Positions 17,975 to 34,779 of a stretch of DNA of 64,000 nucleotides are shown in pieces (within the stretch, counting starts at the first letter, position 1; each line of letters starts with the position of its first letter). This DNA is from a virus, in the IMG/VR virus record IMGVR_UViG_3300019487_000023, positions 44,665 through 108,664 of that record, one strand, 5' to 3'. The notes beneath the pieces were generated by a model. The model was not told the origin of the DNA. It saw only the letters and a list, made by a program, of their open reading frames with translations, and did not search any database. The position numbers and the translations under genes were made by a program.

Positions 17975-18052
17975 GCTCCATTAGCTCAGTTGGTCTAGAG
18001 CGGCGATCTCTAAAATCGTGCGTCGTGGGTTCGAATCCCTCATGGAGCGCCA
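17975..18052 (+). tRNA. tRNA-Sup (anticodon CUA, reads amber UAG), tRNA-Trp-like
   Basis: Full cloverleaf: 7-bp acceptor (GCTCCAT/ATGGAGC), D-stem GCTC/GAGC with GG in the loop, anticodon stem GCGAT/ATCGT (one G-U) and loop CTCTAAA, so the anticodon is CTA at 18010-18012. The T-arm has TTCGAAT and one mismatch, the discriminator is G, and CCA is encoded. The anticodon arm core TCTCTAAAA differs by one base from the TCTCCAAAA of bacterial tRNA-Trp (CCA), and G73 fits, suggesting a Trp-derived suppressor. Which amino acid it carries cannot be read from the sequence. Confidence 0.9.
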
Positions 18053-21605: not shown

Positions 21606-22131
21606 AGAGGATCCGTTTACGGTGGTACGCACTATGGAAGTTGATGATTTATTTGCACCTAATGTTTTGAACTTTTCTCCAAAGACATACCGAGCTCTAA
21701 GTCACAAGACTCAGAATTTGCTGTATCAGTGGAATGAACCTACCAGCCCATTAATTCCACTCGTTGAGTTTCTTGCGAAATTGAAATTGAAGACAGCAAA
21801 GGCAGCTATTGAACAAGGGCAATTTACGTATATACGTAGAGCAGCCCCAGTGGAATTCTATGGTTGCACTGTAAGTGAAGATAAGGTTCAAGAAGCTACT
21901 GACGCCATGATAGCATTTTTGAATGATGTTGGCGACAAAGGTTATATCTTAGCGACTTTATTTTCTCTTGGTAAACTTACATTAGCTACTAAACCCGGCA
22001 CACCAAAGCAATATGCCCTGTTTTCCTACTTTGTGGTGGACCCTAAGGGTCAAACATATGTTGATACTACATATCAAAAGTTTAGCTTTCAAGAAGGCGC
22101 AGTACCTGCAGCATACGAGGACATTAAATGA
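21541..22131 (+). CDS. Unknown protein upstream of GroEL (196 aa)
   Basis: AAGGAG six bases before ATG sets the start, giving a 65-base overlap with the methyltransferase-like gene in another frame. The sequence (MSQLQSAINQRVNEMIAENR; later GYILATLFSLGKLTLATKPG) is a mixed alpha/beta protein with no motif I recognise. It does not resemble GroES: there is no mobile-loop pattern and it is twice as long. It overlaps the chaperonin start by four bases (ATGA), so the two are coupled. Confidence 0.55.
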   Translation: MSQLQSAINQRVNEMIAENRTEEDPFTVVRTMEVDDLFAPNVLNFSPKTYRALSHKTQNLLYQWNEPTSPLIPLVEFLAKLKLKTAKAAIEQGQFTYIRRAAPVEFYGCTVSEDKVQEATDAMIAFLNDVGDKGYILATLFSLGKLTLATKPGTPKQYALFSYFVVDPKGQTYVDTTYQKFSFQEGAVPAAYEDIK

Positions 22132-23846
22132 TTTACGAGAAGTCTAAAGCAAAAAGAATCATCGCAGATAAGAAGCTTATTAAGGGTATTGTTCATAAGA
22201 CCATCGATGAGATGGCTACTGTAGTTGGTGCAACTCTTGGGCCCGGCGGTCGACCTGTCATTATTGAGCGAGACGGCTTGTCTCCTCTAATCACAAAAGA
22301 CGGCGTTACGGTTGCTAAAAATCTTGGCGTTGATCAGGCTGAAGAGAATATCATTATTGAGGCTGCTAAGGAAATCTGTCTAAATACGGCTAAAGAGGCT
22401 GGTGACGGTACCACGACTGCTATCGTTCTTGCAAATGCAATCACGAAGCATGGTCTAGAGTTTCTAGAGAATAGTCCTAAATATAATCCTCAGCGTATGG
22501 TGACTGAACTTCAGGAACTATATGACAAGGTCGTTATCCCATTTTTAAAGACACACGCTAAAGCTGTCAAGACCCGCGAAGAGCTCATTCATGTTGCTAA
22601 GATCTCTGCTAACGGTGATCAGAAGATCGCAGAGGCAGTTGTTGAAGCTGTTATGGCTGCAGGTGAAGACGGAACTGTTCTTCTTGAGGAAGCTCAAGGT
22701 TCTCAGTTGCGCGTCGAGACAATCGATGGGTATGTGGTAACTTCTGGCTTGAAAGATATCGGTCAGGTTGGACCTGCATTCATCAACGATCGTGCCAATC
22801 AGCAAGCGAAGATGGACAACGGCTTGATCTTCCTATATGATGGTTCCATGAACGATCTTAAGGTTCCAGGCGTTATTCAGACTGCTGTCGAGAATACAGA
22901 CCATTTCGGGAAACCGATCATTGTGTTGGCTCACGCCTTCTCTGATGTTGTTCTAGAGAGGTTTGCAAAGTCTACTAAAGGCGGTTACACTGTAGTTCCT
23001 GTTAAGACCCCAATGGCCGGCGTTGCAAATTCGCGCTCAATGTTCCTACAAGACATGGCAGCATATACCGGTGGGAAGGTTTATGATCCAGGCAATATCG
23101 ATCAGATGGTGAATGAAGACGAAGAGGAAGGATTCGGAGTATTTCAATCTGCAAAGGTTGGCATGTACGAGTGTTTCTTGAATTGCGTATCAGAAGCCGA
23201 TCACATCGATGGTCGCGTTGCTGAGTTGAAGTCTTTGTTACTCGCAGCTCCTAGTGAATTTGATAAGATGCATATCAGGGCCGCAATCGGTAAACTAACT
23301 GGCGGGATCTCCACCATTTGGGTTGGAGCAGCCTCTGAACTTGAAGCTCGCGAAAAGAAAGCTCGCGTTGAGGACGCTGTTGAGGCTGTTCGTTCTGCTA
23401 TTGCGGAGGGAATTGTCCCTGGTGGTTGCGGTGTTCACCTTGTTCTATCAGATATGCTATTGCGTCACCCAGAAGCAAAACCTTCTTGGAGCATTATGGC
23501 TAAGGCCCTTCGTGCACCTTTCGAGATGCTACTTTCGAATTGTGGTGAAGATATTAATGATATTTGGGGGGCGCTAGATCAATATGTGCTTGGAAAAGAT
23601 GAGCCACCTAAGGTTATCTTTGATGCCAATCAGCACCTCATGGTTGATCCCATGGAAGTTGGCATTATCGAACCTGCGAAGGTTTGCCGTGTAAGTATCG
23701 GAAATGCGCTCTCTGTTGCATCCCTACTAATCACTGTCGGAGGTATCGTTGTTGTTCCTCGTGATGCTGGTCTTGAAAATCAGCTTGCAATGAGCAAGCA
23801 GGCTTTTAGGGACATGATGAGTGGTGGAGGTGTTGGTGCCGAATAA
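22128..23846 (+). CDS. groEL: GroEL-type chaperonin (572 aa)
   Basis: Phage-encoded chaperonin, expected to fold phage proteins in an ATP-driven ring. Conserved elements include ATLGPGGRPVII (residues 35-46), the nucleotide-site GDGTTTAIVLAN (92-97 for GDGTTT, with the catalytic Asp), apical-domain VVTSGLKDIGQVGPAFIND and the equatorial AIAEGIVPGGCGVHLV. The end is MSGGGVGAE, a GGM-like tail. Full-length family size. No groES gene is seen in the window, as with the single chaperonins of phages EL and OBP. An HNH endonuclease starts inside its 3' end. Confidence 0.93.
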   Translation: MIYEKSKAKRIIADKKLIKGIVHKTIDEMATVVGATLGPGGRPVIIERDGLSPLITKDGVTVAKNLGVDQAEENIIIEAAKEICLNTAKEAGDGTTTAIVLANAITKHGLEFLENSPKYNPQRMVTELQELYDKVVIPFLKTHAKAVKTREELIHVAKISANGDQKIAEAVVEAVMAAGEDGTVLLEEAQGSQLRVETIDGYVVTSGLKDIGQVGPAFINDRANQQAKMDNGLIFLYDGSMNDLKVPGVIQTAVENTDHFGKPIIVLAHAFSDVVLERFAKSTKGGYTVVPVKTPMAGVANSRSMFLQDMAAYTGGKVYDPGNIDQMVNEDEEEGFGVFQSAKVGMYECFLNCVSEADHIDGRVAELKSLLLAAPSEFDKMHIRAAIGKLTGGISTIWVGAASELEAREKKARVEDAVEAVRSAIAEGIVPGGCGVHLVLSDMLLRHPEAKPSWSIMAKALRAPFEMLLSNCGEDINDIWGALDQYVLGKDEPPKVIFDANQHLMVDPMEVGIIEPAKVCRVSIGNALSVASLLITVGGIVVVPRDAGLENQLAMSKQAFRDMMSGGGVGAE

Positions 23847-24306
23847 GTATGCTGACTATAACAAGACGTGGAAAGAAAACAACAAAGACCGTGAATTGGA
23901 TAATTGTAGGCGTTGGGCCAAAGAAAACTTAGAACATAGAAGACAATATAAAAGATTGTTGCACCAAAAACAGATGCAAGATCCAAATTATAGACTTAAA
24001 AGAATATTAAGAAATAGATTTTATAAAGTTATAAGTGGTCGCTCTAAGGTACAGTCAGTTTTATGTTATATAGGGTGCACTGTCGATGAACTAAGGGTTC
24101 ATCTAGAAAAACAATTCGTTGATGACATGTCATGGGACAATCATGGCAGCTATTGGCACGTAGACCATGTCGTGCCGCTAACGTTATTTGATCATTCGAA
24201 CCAAGATGAAACAGCCAAAGCGTGGCATTTTTCTAATTTACAGCCATTAAAAGCGTTAGATAATCTTCGTAAGGGCAGTAAGGTTTATTTATGTGGGATA
24301 AAGTAA
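23836..24306 (+). CDS. HNH homing endonuclease, copy A (156 aa)
   Basis: GTG start at 23836 chosen because GGAGG sits five bases upstream within the chaperonin's last codons. A basic N-terminal helix region with several Lys/Arg-rich turns (RLKRILRNRFYKVISGRSK) precedes the HNH core: SYWHVDHVVPLTLFD and HFSNLQPLKALDNLRKG. It is closely related to the protein at 25361 in its last 80 residues. Free-standing, overlapping the genes on both sides, as homing endonucleases do. Confidence 0.8.
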   Translation: MPNKYADYNKTWKENNKDRELDNCRRWAKENLEHRRQYKRLLHQKQMQDPNYRLKRILRNRFYKVISGRSKVQSVLCYIGCTVDELRVHLEKQFVDDMSWDNHGSYWHVDHVVPLTLFDHSNQDETAKAWHFSNLQPLKALDNLRKGSKVYLCGIK

Positions 24307-25001
24307 AAACCTTCGTTGAAGGAAGCAAGGTAGCACAATTCGTACTTGTACTCCTTTTGGGAGTAGCGATTGGGGCCATCTTTTATCCCACAAAGCGCAT
24401 TGAAGAACGTGAGAAGTCTCGTTACGAAGAGCAATTGAAAATTACGAAAGAAGCCAACGAGAAGGAAGTTAAGCAACTCAATGAGAGGCTTGATAAGTCA
24501 GTAGAAGAAACTAAACAAGTTAGACAAGAGTCTGAAACTAAAATCTCTAAGCTTACTACTCAGGTTCATGATTTACAATCTAAGCAGAAGACCTCTTACT
24601 ACAAACTTGTAAAGCCCGATGGTACTGTTGAGATTAAGAAGTACTCTGAATCTGAAGTAACAGAGTCTACAAAGGTAATCACACAGATTCAAGAAGAGTT
24701 TAAGACAAAGATTGAATCTATTGAAACCAAATGGGAAACTCTACATAAGGAACGCGTTGAGACTCTTCAAAAGGAATGGTCTTCAAAAGAGCAAACCTAT
24801 CAAACAAAGATTGCTGAGCTAGAGAAATCAAAGGTCACTGAGATCAATCAGAAGAAATTTGGACTAGAAGCTGGTTTGATGTCTAACCTAAACTATTATG
24901 GTCACTTCAATGCTGATATCTTTGGTCCGATCTTTATCGGTGGTCAAGCAGAATTTGGTCCTGCACCAGCATTTGGATTGGGCCTCGGAATTCGATTCTA
25001 G
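24291..25001 (+). CDS. Membrane-anchored coiled-coil protein ending in amber TAG (236 aa)
   Basis: Residues ~15-33 are one transmembrane helix (AQFVLVLLLGVAIGAIFYP), followed by ~150 residues of charged coiled coil (KEVKQLNERLDKSVEETK) and a Gly/Phe-rich C-terminus (AEFGPAPAFGLGLGIRF). The layout resembles an inner-membrane spanin or an envelope-spanning protein, but cannot be proved. The stop is TAG at 24999-25001. The next gene's ATG is in the same frame 12 bases further, so suppression would fuse the two. Confidence 0.6.
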   Translation: MWDKVKTFVEGSKVAQFVLVLLLGVAIGAIFYPTKRIEEREKSRYEEQLKITKEANEKEVKQLNERLDKSVEETKQVRQESETKISKLTTQVHDLQSKQKTSYYKLVKPDGTVEIKKYSESEVTESTKVITQIQEEFKTKIESIETKWETLHKERVETLQKEWSSKEQTYQTKIAELEKSKVTEINQKKFGLEAGLMSNLNYYGHFNADIFGPIFIGGQAEFGPAPAFGLGLGIRF

Positions 25002-25007
25002 TATAAT
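25002..25007 (+). promoter_or_regulatory. Leaderless-type -10 box before the zinc-ribbon gene
   Basis: TATAAT directly follows the TAG stop of the previous gene and ends six bases before ATG 25014. There is no Shine-Dalgarno in the six-base gap. Confidence 0.6.
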
Positions 25008-25013
25008 AGAGTC

Positions 25014-25364
25014 ATGCCTAAGTATAAATTCAAGTGTCCTGCCTGCAATGAAGAACGCGAGAAGTATACCTCTAAGGACATAGAGGAAGTACCTTGTCAC
25101 AAATGCGAAGGGCAACCTATGTTTCGCCAATTGCCTACAATCACCGGCCAAGAAGTACGGGAAACTGTAGACCCTATCCTTAATACTAAGTGGAAACAAG
25201 ATCACAAGCAGATCATCAAGGATCGCCATGATGATCACTATTGGGAAGTCGAGGTTCCTCGTCTTGTCCAAAAGTACTCTGTCGAAACCTGTTTAGAGCA
25301 ACAGTGGCTCATTTATAACGAAAAGGGCGAACTGGTCATCAATAAACCACCAAAAAAACGATGA
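25014..25364 (+). CDS. Zinc-ribbon protein, FmdB-like N-terminus (116 aa)
   Basis: Starts MPKYKFKCPACNEEREKYTS with C8/C11 and a second CxxC at C28/C31 (PCHKCEG), the zinc-ribbon layout of FmdB-type regulatory proteins. The remaining ~70 residues are charged and helical. The gene has its own -10 box with a six-base gap. It ends overlapping an HNH gene by four bases (ATGA). DNA or protein binding is plausible; the function is unknown. Confidence 0.6.
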   Translation: MPKYKFKCPACNEEREKYTSKDIEEVPCHKCEGQPMFRQLPTITGQEVRETVDPILNTKWKQDHKQIIKDRHDDHYWEVEVPRLVQKYSVETCLEQQWLIYNEKGELVINKPPKKR

Positions 25365-28865: not shown

Positions 28866-29351
28866 ATGAAGACATGTAGTCAATGCTCTGAAGAGCAACA
28901 ATTAGATCAATTCTATAAAGATAAAAAATCAGCCGATGGATTGCGCGCAAGTTGCAAAACTTGTGTTGCAGCACAGAAGCGTATTTATTTTGAAAAACAT
29001 AGAACTCGAGAACTTAATAAGTTAAAAAAGTGGAAACAACAGAACCCACAAAAAGTTAAAGAAGGTAATCTTCGTAATTTATATGGGATTACAGCAGAAC
29101 AATATTCTGAAATGTTGTTAGCACAAAATAATTGTTGTGCCATTTGTAAGTGCCATAAATCTAAAAACGTTACAGATAAACGTAATGATAAAGTTAGAAA
29201 TTTAGCGGTCGACCATGACCATAAATCTAAAAAGATTCGTGGCTTGTTGTGTTATCGTTGCAATATTGCAGTTGGAATGTTGGTTGATAGCGCCGAACGG
29301 GCTTCTAATTTAGTAGAATACCTTAAATTGCATGAAAAAGAAAACTTATAA
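28866..29351 (+). CDS. Recombination endonuclease VII-like protein (161 aa)
   Basis: An N-terminal zinc ribbon (MKTCSQCSEEQQLDQFYKDK, then CKTC) is followed by the endonuclease VII/HNH core: NCCAICKCHKS, LAVDHDHKSKKIRGLLCYRC and NIAVGMLVDSAERA. The family includes T4 gp49, which resolves branched DNA, and many free-standing homing relatives. The small size and position among HNH genes favour a mobile endonuclease. TACAAT (28854-28859), preceded by TGA, lies six bases before the ATG with no Shine-Dalgarno. Confidence 0.85.
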   Translation: MKTCSQCSEEQQLDQFYKDKKSADGLRASCKTCVAAQKRIYFEKHRTRELNKLKKWKQQNPQKVKEGNLRNLYGITAEQYSEMLLAQNNCCAICKCHKSKNVTDKRNDKVRNLAVDHDHKSKKIRGLLCYRCNIAVGMLVDSAERASNLVEYLKLHEKENL

Positions 29352-29859
29352 TCAAAATGTTGTTATTAGAGGTGCTTTAAGACGAGCATTTGCCCGTAGT
29401 CCTGTGGTTCAAGAAGCTATGCAGGCAAGTCGTAAAGAAGAACCTCGCTATAACAAGGATGGGTCTCGTCATAAACGAAATTGGGTTAAACGTCAATGTC
29501 AAGTATGTGATCAATGGGTTCCAACGTCTAAAATTGCAGTCGACCATATTGATCCTGTTGTTTCGGTTGATGAAGGTTTCCAGGATTGGAATATCTTTGT
29601 AGATCGTCTCTGGTGTGCCAAAGACAACTTACAACGTATTTGCGATGACTGTCATCAGAAGAAAACTAACGCAGAGCGATTTGCTAGATCGTATAAACAA
29701 GAACTAGAACACCTCGCAATCTATGAAGTCTCTAAAGATGAAGAGGCAAAGAAGTTCGTCAAGAAATTCGTCAAGAAGCGCATACAGAAATACCCCTATC
29801 CTCAAGAGTTTGTGGATCGCATCGTCACTCTCAGACGCCATTTCAAGATGAAGGTATAA
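29332..29859 (+). CDS. HNH endonuclease family protein (175 aa)
   Basis: Overlaps the endonuclease VII-like gene by 20 bases. It has a C-x-x-C pair in KRQCQVCDQWVPTSKIAVDH, then HIDPVVSVDEGFQDW and DNLQRICDDCHQKKTNAERF, which together form the H-N-H/zinc core. The basic C-terminus (KKFVKKFVKKRIQKYPYP) suits DNA binding. The tandem arrangement of two endonucleases suggests successive insertions. Confidence 0.8.
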   Translation: MKKKTYNQNVVIRGALRRAFARSPVVQEAMQASRKEEPRYNKDGSRHKRNWVKRQCQVCDQWVPTSKIAVDHIDPVVSVDEGFQDWNIFVDRLWCAKDNLQRICDDCHQKKTNAERFARSYKQELEHLAIYEVSKDEEAKKFVKKFVKKRIQKYPYPQEFVDRIVTLRRHFKMKV

Positions 29860-30630: not shown

Positions 30631-30635
30631 ATTTG

Positions 30636-30641
30636 TATAAT
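30636..30641 (+). promoter_or_regulatory. Leaderless-type -10 box for the DNA polymerase gene
   Basis: TATAAT ends six bases before ATG 30648, with no Shine-Dalgarno. It lies directly after a strong terminator, so it must supply polymerase transcription by itself. Confidence 0.65.
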
Positions 30642-30647
30642 ATCCGC

Positions 30648-32903
30648 ATGAATCGTTTTAAAGAACCAGCGCAACTTCATAATCACTCTAAATATTCACT
30701 GTTAGATGCTGTTCCATCACCAGAAGAATGGGTTGGATGGTGTTTAGAGAACAATACACCAGCGCTAGCAGTCACTGACCATGGTACCGCCATCTCAATG
30801 TTTGATGCGTTGCGTGCTAAAGAGTTTATCAAAGAATACAATAAAGAACATAAGACTAATCATCCGTTGGATGCTGTAACCCTTATCCCTGCCGTAGAGC
30901 TCTACGTCAAGATGAATGCAGAGGACAAGAGTCATCACCACATTACAGCTTGGGCTGCAAGCAAAGAGGGGTATTTCAATTTAATGAAGTTGGCCTCAGT
31001 TGCGTACAACGATACAGTTTCGTACTTCGGTTCCGTTAAGGCTCGTGTTACGTTCGAAGACATTAAACAGTACAAGAAGGGCATTAAGTTCGGTACCGGC
31101 TGCATTGCAGGACCAATTGGTCATGCCTTCTGGCATGGAGATCTTAAGCTTGCAGAAGAGCGCTTTGTCATGTATAAGGAACTCTTCGGTGACGATCTCT
31201 ATGTTGAATTTCACTGCGGTGACGTCACCCATAACTTCAATAAGAAAACCGGCAGCTTCGATCCTATCGAACCAGATGAATGCTCTTGCGATGGTAACAA
31301 GCAAAAGGGCTACAACATCTTCTTGTCTAAGATGGTTGATAAGTATGGTGGCAAATGCGTTCCAGTAACAGATGCCCATTTTATCAATCCTGAGGACAAG
31401 ATCGTCCAGGATTGTTTGCTCAAGAACGGTAATAGCAACGGCTGGTACTTTCATGAGTCGTACCATCAGATGCGATCTGAAGAGATGTTTACGAAGCTTA
31501 AGAGGCACCTTGGGAATTGGCTCACTGAAGATATGTTCATTCAGTGGGTCGAAAACACTTTTGAGGTGATGAATGCGGCTAAAGGCATCGAAGTTAAGTT
31601 CGACTATCATCTACCGTTGATCGATATTCCACAGGACATTAAAGACTTGCATCTAGAGGACTATAACCAGCAGACGCTTCAGTATATGATGCGCCTCATT
31701 AAGGATCATGGTCGTTGGAATGACTCGCCAGAGTATGTAGCGCGATTCAAGCAAGAGCTTGATGTCATCATGGATAATGAGAAGCTAAACTTCATCCCGT
31801 ACTTCCTAGTATATGAGGATATCGGTAGGTTTGCGCGTTCACAGGGCGTTCTTCAGGGCGTTGCTCGTGGATCTGCGGGCGGATCTCTCATCTCCTACTA
31901 TCTAAAAATCATTCATGTTGATCCCATTGCTGCTCACCTTCCATTTGAGAGATTCTTGTCTCATGCACGTATTAGAGCGGGTTCTTTCCCTGATATCGAT
32001 GCCGATATCGGTGATAAGGCGCGTTCTCTTATCATGGATTATCTAAAGAAGAAGTATGGTTTGGGCTTTGCACAGATTGCCACCTTCAATAAGATGAAGA
32101 CTAAGAATGCCATTAAGGATGCGATGTTTGCGCTATATGGGCGCAATCGCAACGATCAAGAAGTGATGGCAGTATGTAAAGACATCGAAGATAGCCCTCA
32201 AGGCGTTGACGAACATGACTTTTTGTATGGATACACAGACCAAGAAGGTAACTATAACGCCGGTCAGATTGAGATTAATAAGCAATTAGCCAATTTTTTC
32301 CAAACGTATCCAGATGTGGAAGCAATGGTTAAAAAGCTTATTGGTACGATCCGTGGTCTATCTAGACATGCGTCTGCATTCGTTATTTCAACCATGGATC
32401 TATCTGCATCTCGTGTTCCAACCATGATGATGACTGATGCTGATCTTGGTGAAATTCAAGTCACTCAGTACGATGCAAAGATGGTTGAAAAATGTGGTCT
32501 AGTTAAGGCTGATATCTTATGTATTAAAACCCTAACAGCTGTATCAGAGTGTATCGATTTGGTGAAGAGAAATGCCAACATTAACTACTTGATTGAGCAA
32601 GAAGGTTTGTCTCTCATATACCGTCTTCCGGAGGACAAGGATGTATATGCGGACTTCTATAACAAGCAGACCGATTCGTCATTCCAGTTTAATACTGAAT
32701 TGATTAAGGGATACATTCAAGAATTCTGCCCTCTACAGAGAGCCGATCTATCTGCCATGACAGCCTTGTGTCGACCTGGTGCATTAGACGCACCCTTAGG
32801 TTTTAATGCAGTGGTTGTAGTAGAATATGAAGATGGAACCTCAATTGAAGTTCCAAAAGAGGAGTATTCTATATGGGTCGAAAAGTGGAAAAAACAACAA
32901 TAG
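30648..32903 (+). CDS. dnaE: DNA polymerase III alpha (DnaE-type), N-terminal catalytic part (751 aa)
   Basis: The PHP domain begins LHNHSKYSLLDAV (H11, H13) with LAVTDHGTA. The palm shows PDIDADIGDKAR (acidic residues 449, 451, 453) and GLVKADILCIKTLT (D622), the C-family catalytic aspartates. Fingers begin with AMTALCRPGALDAPL. The family sequence then breaks: ~34 unrelated residues (VVVEYEDGTSIEVPKEEY...) lead to TAG. The missing remainder is encoded at 33415, after an HNH gene. Start 30648 follows TATAAT by six bases; the TTG at 30633 overlaps the -10 box and is rejected. Confidence 0.9.
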   Translation: MNRFKEPAQLHNHSKYSLLDAVPSPEEWVGWCLENNTPALAVTDHGTAISMFDALRAKEFIKEYNKEHKTNHPLDAVTLIPAVELYVKMNAEDKSHHHITAWAASKEGYFNLMKLASVAYNDTVSYFGSVKARVTFEDIKQYKKGIKFGTGCIAGPIGHAFWHGDLKLAEERFVMYKELFGDDLYVEFHCGDVTHNFNKKTGSFDPIEPDECSCDGNKQKGYNIFLSKMVDKYGGKCVPVTDAHFINPEDKIVQDCLLKNGNSNGWYFHESYHQMRSEEMFTKLKRHLGNWLTEDMFIQWVENTFEVMNAAKGIEVKFDYHLPLIDIPQDIKDLHLEDYNQQTLQYMMRLIKDHGRWNDSPEYVARFKQELDVIMDNEKLNFIPYFLVYEDIGRFARSQGVLQGVARGSAGGSLISYYLKIIHVDPIAAHLPFERFLSHARIRAGSFPDIDADIGDKARSLIMDYLKKKYGLGFAQIATFNKMKTKNAIKDAMFALYGRNRNDQEVMAVCKDIEDSPQGVDEHDFLYGYTDQEGNYNAGQIEINKQLANFFQTYPDVEAMVKKLIGTIRGLSRHASAFVISTMDLSASRVPTMMMTDADLGEIQVTQYDAKMVEKCGLVKADILCIKTLTAVSECIDLVKRNANINYLIEQEGLSLIYRLPEDKDVYADFYNKQTDSSFQFNTELIKGYIQEFCPLQRADLSAMTALCRPGALDAPLGFNAVVVVEYEDGTSIEVPKEEYSIWVEKWKKQQ

Positions 32904-33457
32904 ATGCAGCTATTGATTATTTTGTAAAAAACAACGTGCGTTTTATTGATATATCAGAGAAATTTAAAATCAGTACCAGTACTATTTCTCAACATTTAAA
33001 AAAAAGAGGCATTAAGGTTGATTCTCAAAGAACAAGGAGAGGTAGGTCTTCTTGGAATTCTGGGAAAAATAAGTATAGCGATACGCGAGTTGCAAAAAAT
33101 GCGAAGTCTTTATCTGATGCAAAAACAAAAACAGGACTTCGTTCGGGTTATCAGACAATATATGTCGATGAGTTAAAAAAGCGAATTAGATTACATGAGT
33201 ATGTTTGGTTTAAAAATACCGGAGTATGGCCAGATGGTAAAAATAGAGAACAAGTTCATCATATAGACGGAGATAAACTTAACAACGATTTTGATAATCT
33301 CTTGTTGGTAAAGACAGATGAGCACTCTAAAATCCACAAAGAGTACGAGATAGTGTTTTTGAAGTTATTAAAGCTAGGTTTGATTAAATTTGATAAAATT
33401 GCAAGAGGTGTAGATTGGCGGAGCTTCGAAGAGTTGATAAAAAAATTAAAAGTGTAA
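32873..33457 (+). CDS. HNH homing endonuclease splitting the polymerase gene (194 aa)
   Basis: The N-terminal helix-turn-helix (FVKNNVRFIDISEKFKISTS, then TISQHLKKRGIK) is a DNA-binding domain of the type used by homing enzymes. The HNH core is REQVHHIDGDKLNNDFDNLL with an upstream RIRLHEYVWFKNTG. Start has GAGGAG upstream and lies 31 bases before the end of the first polymerase part. It ends 43 bases after the TTG start of the second part. Most likely it inserted in a polymerase gene and left both halves translatable. Confidence 0.9.
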   Translation: MGRKVEKTTIDAAIDYFVKNNVRFIDISEKFKISTSTISQHLKKRGIKVDSQRTRRGRSSWNSGKNKYSDTRVAKNAKSLSDAKTKTGLRSGYQTIYVDELKKRIRLHEYVWFKNTGVWPDGKNREQVHHIDGDKLNNDFDNLLLVKTDEHSKIHKEYEIVFLKLLKLGLIKFDKIARGVDWRSFEELIKKLKV

Positions 33458-34779
33458 CTATTAGACCTTTGTATGACACAACAGCTGCCCAGTATTACAT
33501 GGATGTTCGAAATGCAAAGCGCTCTGTAGAGTATTTACACGATGATTTGGCGCTTATCCTGAAGGACAGCAATGGAGTTTTTGTCTATCAAGAGGAAGTA
33601 ATGAAGTTCCTCGTGGATATTGTTGGATACACATGGGAGGAGTCTGATCGTATTCGTGATGCTATCGCTAAGAAGAAACACGAAGTCATTATGGCTACGT
33701 TCGATAAGATCAGGGTGTCTTGTGCTGCCCGAGGATGGGACCATGGCGCTATTGAGACCGTGTGTCAGCAGATTCAAGCATTCTCACGTTACTCCTTTAA
33801 CAAGAGTCACTCCCATGCCTATGGTGAACTAGGATACATCACGATGTATTTGAAACATCATCATAAGCTAGAGTGGTGGTGCAGTATTTTGAACCTAAGT
33901 TTGGATGACTCAGAAGAGAAGACACGTAAGTATATTGCGCTTCTTGGAGATTTGGTTAAACCACCTTCGTTGAAGCACCCAACTTCTAAGTTCGAAATTC
34001 GTGAAGTTGATGGCGAAAGAGTCATCATTACACCAATCTCTGCTATTAAGGGATGTGGTCCTGCGGTTGTTAATGAACTCTGCACAAAGGGTCCATTTGC
34101 TTCTATCGAAGATCTCATTGAGCGTATCGATCATCGTAAGGTCAATACTGGCTGCATCTCGTCCTTGATTAAGGGTAGAGCAGCAGATGACATGATGGAT
34201 GCTGATGTGCCTGTCTATAGCGATAGGAGACTTAAGTTCATTGAGGACTTTAAGCGTATCAGAGCAAAAGAAGTTAAGTTGCAACCAGATGTGTTTAACG
34301 TAGATCCTCTCTCTATCTTTATGCAAGAGAAGGAATACAACACGGCGTTCAACAAAGCACTTCTCTCATCTCTTGAGATTGTGGATGTATTAAAATCAAA
34401 GTGGCCAGCGCTTTCAACAACGGGTCGCGCAGGTGCGCCTCTCTTGATGAAGGTTGATGGCAAGCAGATTCCAGTGCTTGCAAATTTAAAGGTTGCTGAA
34501 GGCTTTTTGAAGAAAGGCTATAGTAGCGAGATTGGACTCATCTTGCTGTATGAAGAGTCTACTGCTAAGAAGGGTATCTCTAAGAGAAGCGGCAAACAGT
34601 GGTCTAACTTGACAGTCCACCTATCTGATGGCTTCCATCAAATTGAGTGTGTAGACTGGAAGAAGAGCGTCGCACTAAAGTGGCCAAAGAATACCATCGT
34701 TTACGTAAGAGGTATATTGGAAGAGGGTTGGAAAACACCAGTCTCTTTGAATATCAAGGAAATCGAAAGGATTGAATAA
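33415..34779 (+). CDS. dnaE: DNA polymerase III alpha (DnaE-type), C-terminal part (454 aa)
   Basis: TTG start supported by AGAGGTG five bases upstream. After ~19 residues, family sequence resumes at LYDTTAAQYYMDVRNAK, then GVFVYQEEVMKFLVDIVGYT, YSFNKSHSHAYGELGYITMY (fingers), ISAIKGCGPAVVNELCTKGP (helix-hairpin-helix) and a C-terminal OB-like region (WSNLTVHLSDGFHQIECVDW). These are exactly the portions missing from 30648-32903, so the two should assemble into one enzyme, as split NrdA does in phage Aeh1. Adjacent, co-directional and without a promoter of its own. Confidence 0.9.
   Translation: MAELRRVDKKIKSVTIRPLYDTTAAQYYMDVRNAKRSVEYLHDDLALILKDSNGVFVYQEEVMKFLVDIVGYTWEESDRIRDAIAKKKHEVIMATFDKIRVSCAARGWDHGAIETVCQQIQAFSRYSFNKSHSHAYGELGYITMYLKHHHKLEWWCSILNLSLDDSEEKTRKYIALLGDLVKPPSLKHPTSKFEIREVDGERVIITPISAIKGCGPAVVNELCTKGPFASIEDLIERIDHRKVNTGCISSLIKGRAADDMMDADVPVYSDRRLKFIEDFKRIRAKEVKLQPDVFNVDPLSIFMQEKEYNTAFNKALLSSLEIVDVLKSKWPALSTTGRAGAPLLMKVDGKQIPVLANLKVAEGFLKKGYSSEIGLILLYEESTAKKGISKRSGKQWSNLTVHLSDGFHQIECVDWKKSVALKWPKNTIVYVRGILEEGWKTPVSLNIKEIERIE

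Follow-up and report, generated by a model that had tools for sequence, protein, structure and literature searches.

Organisation of the split dnaE locus

The window analysed here is a 64,000-nucleotide stretch corresponding to bases 44665–108664 of the 108,664-base IMG/VR virus record IMGVR_UViG_3300019487_000023. At positions 30633–34779, it carries a dnaE gene, encoding the alpha subunit of DNA polymerase III (Pol III alpha), which is divided into two genes by a gene for an HNH endonuclease. The three open reading frames (ORFs) lie on the + strand, overlap one another, and each occupy a different frame. Their features are given below; WIN denotes the window allele, and L-numbers are labels of the other loci that were compared.

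30633..32903, + strand: ORF1, with a TTG start and an in-frame ATG at 30648, ending in TAG
30648..32798, + strand: DnaE (Pol III alpha) N half, with PHP, palm and the first half of the fingers; 717 codons common to whole relatives
32799..32903, + strand: N-half tail from the cassette, 34 aa and then TAG; not in whole relatives, in all split alleles; modelled as a beta-hairpin plus helix
32859..32864, + strand: GAGGAG, probable ribosome-binding site of the HNH gene, within tail codons; a purine-rich run precedes the HNH start in 7/7 alleles
32873..33457, + strand: putative HNH homing endonuclease gene (Pfam), second frame, 194 aa, with a helix-turn-helix-like N part and an HNH_3 domain
33404..33410, + strand: AGAGGTG, probable ribosome-binding site of the C half
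33415..34779, + strand: ORF3, third frame, its TTG preceded by AGAGGTG
33415..33471, + strand: C-half head from the cassette, 19 aa, basic; overlaps the HNH gene 3' end in another frame; unstructured in the C-half model
33472..34779, + strand: DnaE C half, with the remaining fingers, helix-hairpin-helix (HhH) and an OB-fold-like part (Pfam, relatives, structure match)
32799..33471, + strand: whole insertion cassette, 673 nt (one more than a multiple of three); empty site in whole relatives

A preliminary description of this locus had proposed a C-family (DnaE-type) polymerase in two genes around an HNH gene, and this was confirmed by the ORFs, their Pfam matches and relatives with a whole gene. 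ORF1 matches PHP, DNA_pol3_alpha and positions 1–80 of the DNA_pol3_finger profile, the middle ORF matches HNH_3, and ORF3 matches positions 82–161 of the finger profile together with HHH_6; thus, the cut in the finger domain falls between profile positions 80 and 82 and removes nothing, and the break lies inside the fingers, as had been stated. The overlaps of the HNH ORF with both flanks in two other frames, and the TAG that ends ORF1 after 34 residues not found in relatives, are likewise as described. The HhH and OB-like parts assigned to the second ORF correspond to the HHH_6 match and to an OB-fold match that lies below the cut-off. The HNH motif residues are invariant in the five alleles aligned. 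The C-half start signal consists of AGAGGTG followed by TTG in WIN, L052, L342 and L346, and of a GGAG-type sequence followed by ATG in L036, L347 and L343.

The catalytic residues of the polymerase have been kept. Models of both the N half and the C half match solved Pol III alpha structures, and the PHP-domain residues H11, H13, D44, E187 and D250 are identical in all 7 split and all 43 whole rows of the alignment. The same holds for D449, D451 and D622, which align with the PDID and KxDxLG motifs of Taq and which we take to be the catalytic aspartates that ORF1 had been said to carry; PHP, Pol3 alpha and finger domains and three aligned aspartates, as expected of a DnaE-type enzyme, are therefore all present. 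The N halves of the split L346 and the whole L133 differ by 0.049 in nonsynonymous divergence (dN) and by 1.2 in synonymous divergence (dS); in the other comparisons, dN is 0.07–0.27 and dS mostly saturated, and dN/dS was set aside as a test, dS being saturated in the majority of the 22 comparisons. In the whole 108,664 nt record, PF07733 is matched once and PF00476 and PF00136 are not matched at all (no family A or B polymerase), and the split DnaE appears from sequence to be the only replicative polymerase in it.

Recurrence of the cassette at one codon of dnaE

In whole relatives found by tblastn with both halves (e.g., L003, L005 and L045, approximately 80% identical in the N half), codon 717 (...DAPL) runs straight into YDTTAAQYYM without an extra base (RPGALDAPL/YDTTAAQYY). 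Since nt 32798, the end of codon 717, joins nt 33472 in these genes, the insert comprises 32799–33471, that is, 585 nt of HNH ORF and 88 nt outside it. The break falls near Taq residue 707, soon after the RPG motif of the fingers (phmmer, whole relative L003 against Taq alpha, 2hpi). Many whole relatives have an in-frame linker of varying length at the same spot, up to 72 nt between the aligned ends, and 48 of 97 distinct sequences have 4–90 nt there; because of these variable linkers, the insertion spot can be regarded as a loop that tolerates length change. Comparison with unsplit relatives had been set beforehand as a refuting test, and the continuous ORFs found in it represent the empty site rather than the sign of an assembly artefact. 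Second contigs agree with the split alleles, with one difference in 7472 bases between L053 and the window, one in 8264 between L036 and L037, and one in 6457 between L344 and L345; this agreement, together with six other lineages that carry homologous cassettes at the same codon, excludes both chance and artefact.

Relatives were collected by scanning viral contigs four times with the C half, once with the N half, twice with the HNH protein and once with a tail pattern, and genome contigs once with the HNH protein. The 262 loci showing both sides of the site, with 6 others set aside as partial, were grouped at 95% identity over up to 600 nt into 101 clusters. Ninety-three of these are whole at the insertion site, and eight are split by related HNH cassettes at the same codon, in a sample that leans to splits because three scans used the HNH protein and L342, L344 (= L345, L346) and L381 came in this way. 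The split clusters are WIN (+L053), L036 (+L037), L052, L161 (= L347), L176 (= L343), L342, L344 (= L346) and L381; L381 is close to L343 (85% identity in the N half, 76% in HNH), and the eight clusters are therefore counted as seven lineages. The split that had been proposed for one virus is thus borne out and extends to a single codon hit in seven lineages, with an HNH phylogeny discordant with that of the polymerase. The split dnaE of L381 (JALWTD010000010.1) lies on a 73 kb contig binned as Flavobacteriaceae, which suggests a host.

Among the loci gathered in the scans, all strong tail-profile matches (53–65 bits) and all strong HNH matches (221–313 bits) are at the dnaE site. The next HNH match scores 72.7 bits, and the weaker ones lie elsewhere (surroundings of 11 loci viewed); the next tail matches, L340 and L283, are short V-E-Y-x-D/N-G matches. 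No other host gene for the cassette was found by the viral and genome scans with HNH, by the tail pattern scan (among the matches listed) or by the tail and HNH profiles. Similarly, no cultured relative of the cassette emerged when three HNH alleles were compared with 50,697 phage records by tblastn: WIN HNH had no match, and those of L343 and L346 matched 102 and 23 records, respectively, all partially, at less than 60% identity and with none covering 80% of the query, DnaE not being named in the best 10 of the 102 or the best 10 of the 23.

The distribution of the cassette was compared with a DnaE tree of 43 of the 85 usable rows (7 split and 36 whole, chosen by us, L381 left out). The split state needs seven changes for the seven split rows on this tree, a single split clade is rejected (approximately unbiased test, p-AU 2.4e-42), and an 85-row FastTree concurs by eye with a scattered split state. 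The HNH genes show different relationships: L052 and L347 are 77% identical in DnaE and 37% in HNH, and L052 and L342 are 47% identical in DnaE and 64% in HNH, with a Spearman rho of 0.18 between the two similarities over 21 non-independent pairs. In the HNH tree (8 rows), L052 groups with L342 (support 95.6); a pairing of L052 with L347 is rejected (p 0.0034), as is, weakly, one of L342 with L346 (p 0.039). Because the DnaE tree needs seven changes and the HNH tree disagrees with it, the cassette has evidently moved horizontally, as homing predicts. The G+C content of the insert is below that of both host-gene halves in six of seven lineages, the exception being L342.

Other elements and irregularities were seen in the loci collected. 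L140, L120 and L121 have an in-frame intein with a LAGLIDADG domain in the same polymerase family, situated approximately 40 codons downstream of the HNH insertion point (within about 2840–3916 of L140), and L147, perhaps also L402, seems to carry another intein before CAYAELGY. In L049, the C half continues in another frame at ~2160–2190, owing to a frameshift or a sequencing error. Distant HNH relatives in L350, L352, L353, L354, L375 and L378 lie directly upstream of ORFs that are ThyX-like by eye, and an HNH match in a Vibrio phage is annotated with thymidylate synthase.

Cassette-encoded tail and head and competing explanations

Every split allele adds 29–34 residues to the N half, with the stop codon lying within the HNH gene; the C half is preceded by 15–20 added residues, and its beginning overlaps the 3' end of the HNH gene. 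The 34 residues that had been called foreign are indeed foreign to the relatives; in addition, they proved to be conserved, of coding type, borne by the cassette and matched by the head of the C half. In the eight aligned tails, Y10, G13 and W26 are invariant (consensus xxNAVxVVEYEDGTIEYxxExEYxKW). The tail frame is free of stops in 7/7 alleles, and the two shifted frames hold 0–6 stops. Before the HNH start, pairwise differences between tails at the first, second and third codon positions are 0.446/0.325/0.565 (22 codons, 21 pairs); those between heads, in the C-half frame, are 0.381/0.429/0.554. Since the differences fall mostly at third positions, tail and head show the pattern of protein under selection, and since third positions of the C-half frame vary most, the head, which lies largely inside the HNH overlap, favours that frame. 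The net charge is −1 to −7 for tails and +1 to +5 for heads in 7/7 alleles (L381 left out of the count).

AlphaFold2 modelled the N half alone (50 rows) with a mean predicted local distance difference test score (pLDDT) of 87.2; in this model, the tail forms strands at 722–726 and 732–736 and a helix at 737–750, with ten-residue pLDDT means of 75–81, and the adjoining break region is poorly predicted. In the model of the C half alone (44 rows, mean pLDDT 87.4), head residues 1–18 score below 50, a disorder that would fit a segment needing its partner.

Taken as a whole, the locus is probably the work of a homing cassette that divides an essential polymerase in two and brings with it a clasp for docking the pieces non-covalently, in the manner of Aeh1 nrdA/mobE with the charges swapped. 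The mobile unit would be an HNH gene bracketed by the translated tail and head and inserted after dnaE codon 717. Without any splicing, the three genes, which overlap and have separate start signals, would be expressed as an N half (PHP, catalytic palm, half of the fingers and tail), an endonuclease, and a C half (head, remaining fingers, HhH and OB). The halves would dock non-covalently through the acidic tail, a hairpin plus helix, and the basic head, alongside the native interface, and docking at a length-tolerant loop would restore an active polymerase. In mixed infections, the endonuclease would cut dnaE alleles with an empty site, into which the cassette would then be copied. The further proposal that the cassette is a self-contained docking element, an endonuclease gene bracketed by clasp halves and carried from allele to allele, with tail charges convergent with those of Aeh1, stands at about even chances.

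Several points weigh against this interpretation. There is no overall excess of the co-conversion of flanks beside the site that is expected of recent homing, and only L052–L342, the closest HNH pair, stands out in the scan (rank 13 of 698 windows). A further polymerase may exist, since the record is possibly incomplete. The C half of L346 is 71% identical to that of L133, compared with 92% for the N half (87% and 83% in the whole–whole control pair L133–L131), with smaller C-half deficits in WIN, L052 and L347 and none in L343 and L036; this divergence may come from relaxed constraint on the divided gene or from recombination at its break point. The tail is short, with an average identity between alleles of ~40% and only its three invariant residues fixed; it partly overlaps the HNH start signals, and its conservation may be due in part to the needs of the HNH gene. 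The charges are weak in L343 (−1/+1), and because the alleles are homologous, the 7/7 opposite charges are not seven independent observations.

The strongest competitor, although an unlikely one, is that the halves assemble via native polymerase surfaces and that tail and head are mere by-products of the HNH ribosome-binding site and of the gene overlap. The tail does hold that ribosome-binding site and is short and variable, the head does overlap the HNH 3' end, and head similarity tracks HNH similarity (rho 0.62). However, upstream of the overlap, the tail is kept as protein, with its third-position excess and its frame open in all seven alleles; within the head, which is mostly in the overlap, it is the C-half frame that is constrained; and the modelled hairpin-helix and the opposite charges of tail and head also argue against by-products. 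A shared RNA hairpin masking the HNH start was not found, the seven leaders folding differently (z +0.13 to −3.34); such a hairpin has been described for mobE of Aeh1.

Removal of the insert from the mRNA as an undescribed group I-like intron is very improbable. Phage HNH genes often sit in introns, and the insert ends in G at 33471. Nevertheless, the non-ORF part of the insert, put at about 85 bases in the preliminary description, measures 88 nt, which leaves no room for an ordinary group I intron core, as had been argued. Rfam gave no intron at the gathering threshold in the window, L036 and L052 (only a tRNA), none in L342, L343, L346, L347 and L381, and, at a relaxed threshold over 32500–33800, only five sub-threshold matches to eukaryotic or sRNA families; the RNA fold of the insert is no better than that of shuffled sequences (z −0.43). 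No conserved ribozyme core of a group I or II intron was found in these searches. Moreover, tail and head evolve as protein, and because each downstream gene has its own start in every allele, splicing would make these signals pointless.

Trans-splicing by a degenerate split intein (a fractured gene) is less credible still. The tail spacing V8-D12-G13 resembles what we take to be intein block A, and three of the eight tails begin with Ser. Against this, Cys is the first residue of no tail, and that of five of the eight is Gly, Ile or Lys; the heads, at only 15–20 aa, all lack a terminal His-Asn. A Pfam scan of six tails gave no intein, only weak Rib, DUF7141, Med16 and Tudor matches, and hhalign against a real intein from the same polymerase family gave no match. 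The Hint blocks and terminal His-Asn of a split intein were thus found neither in the tail and head sequences nor by these profile searches. Fractured genes with split inteins and a homing endonuclease do exist, including MIJ3 PolB, as treated in the relevant passages of PMC6892783.

Programmed bypass or frameshifting to a full-length chain is equally hard to credit: a −1 slip at A_AAA_AAA (33439–33445, HNH frame) would lead into the frame of the C half, but the product would be an HNH–polymerase fusion and not whole DnaE, the motif is not present in L052 or L036, and whole DnaE could arise only if the ribosome jumped the main part of the HNH gene. A broken, decaying gene or an assembly artefact, suggested by the interruption itself and by the fast divergence of the L346 C half, can practically be dismissed given second assemblies for three lineages, seven lineages in all, intact catalytic residues, both halves open throughout and no other polymerase found in the record.

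Recoding of the TAG codon through a CUA tRNA was also considered and rejected, as readthrough would add just 7 codons to the N half. The window contains a tRNA with a CUA (amber) anticodon and encoded CCA (17975–18052, +; Rfam 61.9 bits; ARAGORN label Pyl), and TAG ends three of the 57 + strand ORFs of a greedy gene set, the DnaE N half among them. The ORF at 24291–25364 (+) ends in TAG in frame with the next ORF (a zinc ribbon with its own ATG at 25014), and these are probably two genes. A second, different HNH gene lies just upstream of dnaE (29332–29859, +), and a phage-borne Cpn60/TCP1-type chaperonin is encoded at 22128–23846 (+; E 1.5e-44).

Related systems and implications

The parallel with split NrdA of phage Aeh1, drawn in the preliminary description, was upheld by the whole homologues, the clean insert between codons, the HNH gene between the halves and the lack of a recognised intron or intein. 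In nrdA-A/mobE/nrdA-B, as here, an HNH gene splits an essential nucleotide/replication gene of a phage, and each half carries a tail encoded by the insert, of about 32 and 25 aa at Aeh1. In the alignment with T4 NrdA, similarity stops at residue 438 in NrdA-A and starts at residue 26 in NrdA-B. Net charge is +6 over the final 32 residues of NrdA-A and −10 over the initial 28 of NrdA-B; the tails are thus opposite in charge in both systems, but the polarity is reversed (here, the tail is acidic and the head basic). To judge by its title, a 2011 paper by Crona et al. reportedly assigns the role to protein interaction domains that originate in the mobile element. The host gene is different, and the present cassette recurs in seven lineages at one codon; kinship between its HNH protein and MobE of Aeh1 was not detectable (E 0.21). 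The passages on Aeh1 NrdA in PMC2988022, PMC3653736 and PMC3267527 describe no intron and an enzyme active as two chains.

In Aeromonas phage 25, gene 43 (family B polymerase) is split with seg43(25), and 43A and 43B co-purify and polymerise; the review, in its section on this gene, leaves open whether the endonuclease made the split (PMC2988022). This gene and T4 gene 60/mobA resemble the split dnaE as phage replication genes in two pieces beside a homing endonuclease, but a family B polymerase or a topoisomerase and other endonucleases are involved. Fractured genes with split inteins were reportedly described by Dassa et al. in 2009. The MIJ3 PolB gene is similar in having halves around an HNH gene in a phage polymerase, according to the part of PMC6892783 that concerns it; fractured genes of this type carry intein splicing blocks, whereas none were found in split dnaE. 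The ShiLan domain, an out-of-frame HNH in a phage methylase, is reported in the relevant part of PMC11855218 to be neither intron nor intein; there, the host frame runs through the insert to give one chain, whereas split dnaE stops and restarts. The split dnaE is therefore of the Aeh1 kind, with a new host gene, recurrence, and a conserved tail and head. No description of an HNH-split dnaE was found among titles and abstract openings in a literature search, which is weak evidence of absence.

If this interpretation is true, a splice-free way for a selfish gene to live in an essential gene would be a recurrent strategy and not a one-off of Aeh1; it would be a third way beside introns and inteins, with a portable protein clasp, in the catalytic subunit of a replicative polymerase. 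The seven natural tail/head alleles would form a set for probing the mechanism and interchangeability of the clasp, and natural split sites and pairs would become available for split-protein work. As a caution for annotation, gene callers will list such a locus as two polymerase fragments, although the product may be a single two-chain enzyme. If the cassette is indeed a docking element, protein assembly would do for it what RNA splicing does for introns and protein splicing for inteins, and such a cassette could invade the core of an essential replicative polymerase repeatedly.

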